Source of the DNA: Ottowia sp. oral taxon 894
GTDB taxonomy: Bacteria > Pseudomonadota > Gammaproteobacteria > Burkholderiales > Burkholderiaceae_C
Direction: 5' to 3'
Assembly: GCF_001262075.1 (NCBI RefSeq)
Contig: NZ_CP012073.1
Span: forward strand, 992,001 to 1,056,000
DNA length: 64,000 nt
Part shown: piece after piece, positions 14,165 through 15,581 of the stretch
Layout: the number at the start of each line of letters is the position of its first letter
Position numbering within the stretch: the stretch's first letter is position 1
The notes under the pieces: model-generated
Databases searched by the model: none
What the model saw: only the letters and a program-made list of their open reading frames with translations
What the model was told of the DNA's origin: nothing
Made by a program: the position numbers and the translations under genes

Positions 14165-15277
14165 TCAGGCCCGCGCGCGCCGCGCCTGCACGGCTTCGGC
14201 CAGCACGTTGATGAGCGCCTCGGAATCGTCCCAGCCCAGGCAGGCGTCGGTGATGCTCTGGCCGTATTCGAGGGTGGCGGGGTCGTCCTGGCCGGGAATG
14301 AATTTCTGCGCGCCGGCGCGCAGGTTGCTTTCCAGCATCACGCCGCTGATGCGGCGCGAGCCTGCGCTGATCTGGCGGGCCAGGTCGTGCGCCACATCCA
14401 GCTGCTTTTCGTACTGCTTGCTGCTGTTGGCGTGGCTGCAATCGACCATGAGCGTTTCGGGCAGGCCGGCGGCGGCCAGCTGCTGGCAGGCGGCCTGCAC
14501 GCTGGCGTCGTCGTAGTTGGGCTGCTTGCCGCCGCGCAGGATGAGGTGGCAGTCGGGGTTGCCCTGGGTGTGCACGATGGCGACCTGCCCGCTCTTGCCT
14601 ACGGAGAGAAAGTGGTGCCCGCGCGAGGCGGCCTGCACGGCGTCGATGGCGATTTTCACGTTGCCGTCAGTGCCGTTCTTGAAGCCGATGGGCGCCGAAA
14701 GGCCGCTGGCCAGCTCGCGGTGCACCTGGCTTTCGGTGGTGCGCGCGCCAATGGCGCCCCAGCTGATGAGATCGCCAATGTATTGCGGCGAAATCACGTC
14801 CAGGAACTCGCTGGCGGCGGGCATGCCCAGGCGGTTGATGTCCAGCAGCAGCTGGCGCGCAATGCGCAGGCCCTCGTCGATGCGGCAGCTCTCGTCCAGA
14901 TACGGGTCGTTGATCAGCCCTTTCCAGCCGACGGTGGTGCGCGGCTTTTCAAAGTACACGCGCATCACGATTTCCAGCGCGCCAGCGTGGCGCTCGCGCA
15001 GCGGCTGGAGGCGGCGGGCGTAGTCCAGCGCGGCGGCGGGGTCGTGAATGGAGCAGGGGCCGATGACCACGAGCAGCCGGTCATCCGCGCCCCGCATGAT
15101 GCGGCTCGTGCGCTCGCGCGTAGCGGCCACCAGGGTTTCGGCGTGCGTGCCGTTGATGGGGAAAAAGCGGATCAGGTGTTCGGGCGGGGGCAGCATGGCA
15201 ATGTCCTTGATGCGTTCGTCGTCAGTCGGGCCGGTTTTCTCGTAGGGCAAACGCCAGGACGGGGCATTGCGGGGCAT
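14165..15277 (-). CDS. aroG: 3-deoxy-7-phosphoheptulonate (DAHP) synthase, type I
   Basis: First step of aromatic amino-acid synthesis, joining PEP and erythrose 4-phosphate. The 370-residue protein has the class I motifs VVIGPCSIHDPAAAL, MRVYFEKPRTTVGWKGL, SWGAIGARTTESQ with FKNGTDGNVK, VDCSHANSSK and IMGVMLES-like SGVMLESNL. The ATG complementary to 15,275-15,277 is preceded by AAGGAGAACCACG, an excellent ribosome-binding site, and decides the start against a longer frame opening at 15,487. The leader upstream has a Phe/Trp-rich peptide ORF and a terminator (separate entries), suggesting attenuation by charged tRNA-Phe and/or tRNA-Trp. Which amino acid inhibits the enzyme cannot be read safely from the sequence. 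Confidence 0.95.
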   Translation of the reverse strand: MPRNAPSWRLPYEKTGPTDDERIKDIAMLPPPEHLIRFFPINGTHAETLVAATRERTSRIMRGADDRLLVVIGPCSIHDPAAALDYARRLQPLRERHAGALEIVMRVYFEKPRTTVGWKGLINDPYLDESCRIDEGLRIARQLLLDINRLGMPAASEFLDVISPQYIGDLISWGAIGARTTESQVHRELASGLSAPIGFKNGTDGNVKIAIDAVQAASRGHHFLSVGKSGQVAIVHTQGNPDCHLILRGGKQPNYDDASVQAACQQLAAAGLPETLMVDCSHANSSKQYEKQLDVAHDLARQISAGSRRISGVMLESNLRAGAQKFIPGQDDPATLEYGQSITDACLGWDDSEALINVLAEAVQARRARA

Positions 15278-15319
15278 CGTGGTTCTCCTTGCAAAACGTG
15301 AATGGATGAAATGGACATG

Positions 15320-15351
15320 AAAAAACCGCCGGGCTTGTGAGGCTCCGGCGG
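15320..15351 (-). terminator. Leader terminator (attenuator) upstream of aroG
   Basis: On the minus strand CCGCCGG (from 15,345-15,351) pairs with CCGGCGG (from 15,326-15,332) around a 12-nt loop, followed directly by a T6 run (15,320-15,325). It lies 43 bp upstream of the aroG start codon and 39 bp after the stop of the FWFWFWF leader ORF, so it would end transcription before aroG. A second CCGGCGG inside the leader ORF (about 15,413-15,419) could pair with the terminator's 5' arm to form an antiterminator. Confidence 0.85.
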
Positions 15352-15390
15352 TTTCGGGTGAATGTGATCGGGAAGCTTTGCGGCGCGCTT

Positions 15391-15468
15391 TCAGCAACAG
15401 GCCAGCCTCTCGTCCGCCGGGGACAGAGAAAACCAGAACCAAAACCAGAAAGCGCGGCTGAAAGTCAT
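15391..15468 (-). CDS. Phe/Trp leader peptide of aroG (25 codons)
   Basis: An ORF starting at the ATG complementary to 15,466-15,468 reads MTFSRA, then FWFWFWF, then SLSPADERLACC and a TGA. The seven consecutive codons are TTC TGG TTT TGG TTC TGG TTT. Trp codons are rare, so three of them alternating with four Phe codons in a 25-codon ORF directly before an intrinsic terminator and an aromatic-pathway gene is very unlikely by chance. Ribosome stalling in this run would leave the downstream CCGGCGG free to pair with the terminator arm; a ribosome reaching the stop would cover it. The initiation site is only moderate, with GAGTCCGCCGCCT upstream. The attenuation role is inference. Confidence 0.82.
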   Translation of the reverse strand: MTFSRAFWFWFWFSLSPADERLACC

Positions 15469-15581
15469 AGGCGGCGGACTCTAGCACACCGGCGGCAGCC
15501 CCCTGCCCTGCTCATGGCCAGACGCTGAACAGGGGCCGGGATGCAAAGAGCCAAGGGCTGGCAGAAGAGAAGGACCGGGTC

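Follow-up and report, generated by a model that had tools for sequence, protein, structure and literature searches.

A candidate aromatic-codon attenuator ahead of the DAHP synthase gene aroG in Ottowia sp. oral taxon 894 and related bacteria

DAHP synthase controls the entry of carbon into aromatic synthesis. In the pheL-pheA and trpL-trpE leaders of Enterobacteria, the RNA can form alternative pairings (1:2, 2:3 and 3:4), and the regulatory codons are placed before segment 2. The aroG leader described here shares this pairing scheme, but pheL-pheA and trpL-trpE respond to one amino acid each and have other target genes. No match to any Rfam family, Phe_leader and Trp_leader included, was obtained at the curated score in the window, i.e., the whole 64,000-nucleotide stretch of contig NZ_CP012073.1 that was analysed, and a relaxed Rfam search of the window region and seven relatives yielded weak matches only, with Phe_leader appearing once (E 0.49), in a relative and not in the window. 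The closest precedent is the aroR-aroF system of C. glutamicum, in which the DAHP synthase gene aroF is reported to lie behind the aromatic leader peptide aroR (Phe-Tyr-Phe), ribosome stalling to raise transcription, and the operon to respond to limitation of Phe and not of Tyr (work of Neshat et al. 2014; PMC11802643, PMC4046766). It differs in belonging to an Actinobacterium and in that only Phe-Tyr-Phe, and no Trp, is mentioned for it; the likeness is one of description and not of RNA comparison.

Attenuators have likewise been proposed for DAHP synthase operons of gamma-proteobacteria, which are likened here by description only. In the operon listing for Vibrio, aroA-I is presumably DAHP synthase. 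An attenuator that senses Tyr-tRNA is listed for Shewanella aroF (PMC2659441), and work on tyrA names putative attenuators ahead of a DAHP synthase-tyrA operon of Vibrio (PMC1173090). A leaderless leader ORF like that predicted below is found in Sinorhizobium meliloti, where the trpL transcript is stated to begin at the trpL ATG (PMC7298713). That leader is a Trp sensor of trpE(G), and its start is known, whereas the start of the aroG leader is only predicted. An earlier description of an aromatic aroG leader family in Burkholderiales was not found in the open-access literature searched; a comparative study of proteobacterial attenuators from 2004 may hold a prior mention of it. Here we describe the aroG leader of the window and its relatives, which comprise natural variants (with or without Trp codons, without Tyr codons, with a stop codon inside segment 2, or with the leader lost) suited to tests of multi-amino-acid sensing, codon tuning and leaderless initiation; removal of the switch could matter for the overproduction of aromatic compounds.

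All features of the locus lie on the minus strand of the window. The initial annotation had described a 25-codon ORF containing the codon run FWFWFWF, a 7-bp GC stem followed by T6 that starts 39 bp past the stop codon of this ORF, and a CCGGCGG segment 9 bp past the last Phe codon that is able to pair with the 5' arm of the terminator; all three are present as described. The leader peptide ORF (MTFSRAFWFWFWFSLSPADERLACC; 15391-15468), an aromatic ORF conserved among relatives, has 25 codons, and the sensor codons F-W-F-W-F-W-F, read from the sequence, occupy 15430-15450. Across all six reading frames the window has no other run of seven consecutive aromatic codons, and none was seen in 30 locally shuffled windows. 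Segment 2 (CCGGCGG, 15420-15414), which would form the 5' arm of the antiterminator, starts 9 nt past the last Phe codon. Segment 3 (CCGCCGG, 15351-15345), which starts 39 nt past the leader stop codon, is common to the antiterminator, in which it would pair with 15420-15414, and to the intrinsic terminator (15320-15351), in which it pairs with CCGGCGG at 15332-15326 in a mismatch-free 7-bp stem that closes a 12-nt loop and is followed by T6 at 15325-15320. Two further hairpins are predicted: a P2 protector (segment 1:2; TTTCTC-GTCC / GGAC-GAGAGG; 15406-15431), which was taken from a fold and starts within the last Phe codon, and P1, in which a 5' arm overlapping the first Phe codon (CGCGCTTTC; 15456-15448) can form 9 bp with a 3' arm overlapping the leader stop codon (GAAAGCGCG; 15392-15384).

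Downstream of the terminator, the Shine-Dalgarno motif AAGGAG of aroG (15285-15290) was read from the sequence, and the aroG ATG (15277) lies 42 nt past the T run, which confirms the order of terminator and gene given in the initial annotation and corrects its spacing of 43 nt. The gene (14165-15277) encodes a type I DAHP synthase of 370 aa that matches PF00793, one of three such matches in the 2.93 Mb one-contig genome; the closest solved relatives of the protein include a Phe-sensitive DAHP synthase (5cks, 1kfl), which we take to be the E. coli enzyme. Ahead of the aroG ATG the same reading frame runs without a stop codon across the leader as far as a GTG at 15487 (440-aa ORF), so that automatic annotation may add a false N-terminal extension of 70 residues (15487-15277, minus strand). 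A standard promoter and terminator scan of the window reported neither a promoter nor the terminator of the aroG leader, the latter being overlooked because the scan permits loops of at most 8 nt. Folding of the leader had been proposed as a check, but plain minimum-energy folding found no unusual structure (z -0.97) and was uninformative; the evidence for an attenuator comes from comparison.

The comparison was based on the best 80 of at least 588 contig-scan matches together with loci from 29 same-genus genomes. Of 113 loci 99 were kept: L003 gave no match, and a further 13 were excluded for identity below 60%, for want of upstream DNA or, in the case of L002, as a copy of L084; the start of L093 was shifted to an upstream ATG, and that of L089, which has no ATG, was set by hand. 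An aromatic short ORF and a terminator were found at 82 of the 99 listed aroG loci (at least 60% identity, with upstream DNA). At 80 of them the script recognised a leader with a CCGCC-type terminator (79 distinct, L064 being identical to L056). Among five loci with an aromatic ORF but without a CCGCC-type terminator (L072, L077, L051, L060 and L069), the first two, whose terminator is variant or cut, were counted by inspection, and the remaining three were not counted. No leader was recognised at 17 of the 99 orthologous loci, namely three of Polynucleobacter, two of Cupriavidus, several of Rhodocyclaceae, other distant loci, and L100 of the window's own genus. At L100, which belongs to a 2.0-Mb genome, and at L031 and L037 of Polynucleobacter, the preceding gene ends shortly before aroG and no leader is left. 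Such a leader is absent from nine paralogous loci of 55-60% identity (own genome included); two of these hold only a chance-level ORF with 4/9 residues aromatic. On a tree of 108 DAHP synthases, where L024 was scored as leaderless only because its contig ends, leader presence requires 10 changes, compared with a mean of 24 for shuffled labels, so that inheritance appears to account for most of the leader's distribution, together with its loss or gain on several occasions. The protein tree groups the window with the leaderless L100 at moderate support (96/68, not starred).

Codon composition was determined for the 149 of 156 leaders that have a script-recognised terminator (the seven without one and four duplicate loci were left out); eight peptide sequences are repeated among the 149, and some species occur twice. 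Phe codons are present in all 149 leaders, Tyr codons in 146 and Trp codons in 107. The three occur together in 106 leaders, 40 have Phe and Tyr, two have Phe only, and a single leader, that of the window, combines Phe and Trp without Tyr. Typical leaders are MKTRVAFGFYFWFSVLGGREANV for the same genus, MSAKFYFYFFWHLRPLADREG for Burkholderiaceae and MTCFFFTGYFYFSNSNPKAVE for Oxalobacteraceae. Over the 149 leaders, the 7-codon block ending with the last aromatic codon contains 909 T-initial codons, of which 894 encode Phe, Tyr or Trp (the others being 11 Ser, 3 Cys and 1 Leu), a count that is biased upward since the block was chosen by aromatic density. Codon counts were relied on because mean entropies at the three codon positions (0.79, 1.53 and 1.36) do not make the third position the most variable, Phe, Tyr and Trp codons differing at position 2. 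In the alignment the window has 2 extra nt after the last Trp codon, and the PGGREA-type tail of its relatives therefore lies in another frame.

The initial annotation had suggested looking for a conserved FW-rich ORF in relatives, and had named as contrary evidence that no relative keeps the run along with the terminator. Relatives do keep an aromatic run together with the terminator; the literal FWFWFWF, however, occurs in none of the other 148 leaders. Its proposal of a dual Phe/Trp sensor describes the codons of the window's leader correctly but does not extend to the relatives, all but two of which carry Phe and Tyr, mostly with Trp. Judged by the codon composition of the 149 leaders, the predicted sensor of the leader family is Phe plus Tyr, usually with Trp, and the FW alternation of the window is a local variant of this broader aromatic sensor. 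Loss of the Tyr codons through an inability to make Tyr was considered and rejected, because the host genome carries a prephenate dehydrogenase gene. Another departure is seen in the leader at L015:817-939 (MRTTVRYHFWHFHIQHLTGAGVANA), in which several His codons are interspersed with the aromatic codons and a GGCGG segment 2 is lacking; it may be a decaying or a retuned sensor.

Pairings were counted in the 138 leaders with recognisable segments 2 and 3 (11 of the 149 lack either). The core of segment 2, GGCGG, starts 8-17 nt past the last aromatic codon in 136 of them, which is about the reach of a ribosome positioned on that codon. At the variable position beside the core, segments 2-3-4 read C-G-C in 63 leaders, U-A-U in 32, A-U-A in 2, U-G-C in 8 and U-A-C in 2. 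The variable position is paired between segments 2 and 3 in 107 of the 138 leaders (mean of 5000 shuffles 84, maximum 96) and unpaired in 31. The initial annotation had proposed a search for co-varying antiterminator and terminator stems in relatives, and it is in this joint change of segments 2, 3 and 4 that they are found. Hairpin stabilities were compared with those obtained when arms were exchanged between species, in statistics that ignore the tree and include some species or identical peptides twice. Mean values were -17.9 (native) vs -16.3 kcal/mol (permuted) for the antiterminator (n = 138), -9.1 vs -8.1 kcal/mol for P2 (n = 138) and -12.4 vs -10.8 kcal/mol for P1 (n = 65 clade members), and in each case none of 5000 permutations reached the native value. 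In an earlier set of 75 leaders, this was so for the antiterminator both overall and within families (0/5000), while P2 was reached in 2/5000 permutations overall and in 17/5000 within families. By this comparison, the predicted arms of the antiterminator, P2 and P1 fit each other better within species than between species. RNAalifold, applied to the clade alignment A1, returned only the nearly invariant terminator stem, in which seven of eight predicted pairs never vary; the terminator thus contributes no co-variation within the window's clade, and co-variation was for this reason scripted across families.

A putative promoter was found close to the leader start. In the window, an extended -10 element (TG-C-TAGAGT, 15478-15486) lies 9 nt upstream of the leader ATG. 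Of 56 leaders of the window's clade (Comamonadaceae and Sphaerotilaceae type), 54 have a TGnTAnnnT that ends 6-10 nt ahead of the leader start, compared with 6 of 1176 control windows, and a Shine-Dalgarno-like motif precedes the leader start in none of the 56. The extended -10 element is also present at 11 of 12 further loci, a few of which may repeat species. In other families 14 of 57 leaders show a -10 element of that kind; the near element is absent from all 19 Burkholderiaceae- and Oxalobacteraceae-type loci, 16 of which have TATAA or TATAG 25-39 nt upstream. The conserved near element places the predicted transcription start on the leader ATG or no more than a few nucleotides away from it, and the leader ORF of the window's clade is probably leaderless. 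A segment upstream of the ATG (GTCCGCCG), considered as a partner of segment 2, was discarded, as transcription is predicted to begin only after it.

The effect of ribosome position was explored with a simple thermodynamic model in which transcripts end before segment 4 and the ribosome masks 12 nt from the start of its A site. For the window, the model gives the antiterminator a probability of 0.93-0.99 with the ribosome on any one of the seven aromatic codons and of 0.18 with it on the Ser codon that follows; on all remaining codons, on the stop codon and with no ribosome the probability is 0.00. Averaged over the 138 leaders, it falls from 0.93 on the last aromatic codon to 0.50 one codon further on, 0.06 three codons further on and 0.00 on the stop codon. 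A strict rule, by which every codon of the aromatic block lies above 0.5 and every codon from +3 onwards below it, holds for 89, 104, 106, 105 and 65 of the 138 leaders when +9, +11, +12, +13 and +15 nt are masked. For the window, the first Phe codon is lost and the next Ser gained at +9 or +11 nt, and the last Phe codon is lost and the preceding Ala gained at +15 nt. Under this model the spacing suits a ribosome that frees segment 2 while on the regulatory codons and covers it once beyond them. The antiterminator forms without a ribosome in 46% of the 138 leaders, so that in some lineages the switch may be on when the leader is untranslated; that of the window is then off.

The conserved layout and the fit of the pairings within species strongly support the proposal of the initial annotation, and the leader is very probably a ribosome-mediated transcription attenuator of aroG. 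RNA polymerase would start at or beside the leader AUG, and a ribosome would load at the 5' end and follow it. With charged tRNA-Phe and tRNA-Trp plentiful (and tRNA-Tyr in most relatives), the ribosome would clear the aromatic codons, and segment 2 would be either covered by the ribosome or held by P1 and P2; segment 3 would then pair with segment 4, and the terminator would halt transcription before aroG. If one of these tRNAs were uncharged, the ribosome would stall on the aromatic run and mask segment 1 and the P1 arm, leaving segment 2 free to form the 2:3 antiterminator, and aroG would be transcribed. A study of Ralstonia solanacearum, in whose text neither 'attenuat-' nor 'leader' appears, reports that deletion of aroG1 or aroG2 brings expression of the other gene to 10-20-fold (PMC6379268). 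By analogy, such a rise would fit an attenuator.

Other explanations of the leader are far less probable. Nascent peptides can themselves be sensors, as TnaC is for Trp, and the C-terminal part of the peptide looks conserved in many leaders (PGGREA, PLADREG), which could point to an arrest peptide that senses free aromatic amino acids and not tRNA charging. The reading frame across the segment behind this tail differs, however, among the 65 clade leaders (50, 14 and 1), so that segment 2 is kept as RNA while the frame shifts, and conservation of the tail at the peptide level was rejected on this ground. In five leaders (L009, L028, L030, L036 and L128) a UGA stop inside segment 2 (GGCGGATGA) ends the peptide within the tail segment; a terminating ribosome would there sit on the antiterminator arm itself. 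As the aromatic residues also vary in order and kind, an arrest peptide is very unlikely.

A constitutive terminator next to a chance or vestigial ORF, with aroG expressed by read-through or from another promoter, would agree with the lack of an Rfam match and with the fact that the case for regulation by attenuation is built from sequence. It is hard to reconcile with an ORF, a spacing, a promoter element and a co-varying antiterminator that are kept over many families, and we give it hardly any weight. Equally improbable is an attenuator that works chiefly in trans, through its terminated leader RNA or its peptide, as reported for rnTrpL and peTrpL of Sinorhizobium meliloti. The compact leaderless layout does resemble that of trpL, whose products are reported to act in trans (PMC7298713), but the tail of the aroG leader is not conserved as a peptide. 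A ribosome-mediated attenuator of aroG is accordingly the reading preferred here.

The distribution of the leader was surveyed with a model (R1) built from 56 leaders of one clade. R1 matches the window, which is part of the training set, at E 9e-22 and finds full-length leaders of Burkholderiaceae and Oxalobacteraceae at E 2e-20 to 2e-7; weak minus-strand echoes were seen at several leader loci. Weak matches confined to roughly model positions 90-130 represent bare terminators and were excluded from the leader counts. At the paralogs and leaderless orthologs searched, R1 found no full-length leader, the match at L082 being a bare terminator. The own genome holds one strong full-length copy, the next listed matches being weaker and mostly partial, and no DAHP synthase lies near seven of these weaker loci (L115-L121). 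Among 399 sampled genomes of the order, 183 have an R1 match at E <=0.01, many of them bare terminators, whereas 99 genomes, spread over 14 families and counting the own genome, have a full-length match at E <=1.3e-7, four more full-length matches (E 8e-6 to 1.3e-4) being left out of this count. Outside the order, full-length matches (E <=1e-5) were found in 2 of 274 genomes of the class sample and in 7 of 299 genomes of the phylum sample, the latter comprising five of the same class and two of other classes, with two common to the class sample. Two terminator-only matches outside the order (L193 and L194) have no DAHP synthase nearby. In the flanks of 76 distinct full-length matches, a DAHP synthase lies downstream in all 76 (own included; 57-78% identical, own excluded), and the leader ATG is in every case 89-241 nt upstream of the extrapolated DAHP synthase start.

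It is more likely than not that the leaders form an old and uncatalogued attenuator family, often on a leaderless transcript, that senses jointly whether tRNA-Phe, tRNA-Tyr and tRNA-Trp are charged and gates the first aromatic step across Burkholderiales and some other Pseudomonadota; lineages would retune it by codon swaps, with the leader of the window having dropped Tyr and gained Trp. Full-length leaders before a DAHP synthase were also observed on a contig labelled Devosia (L066) and in two genomes outside the window's class (L198 and L201), where they may reflect deep ancestry or transfer.
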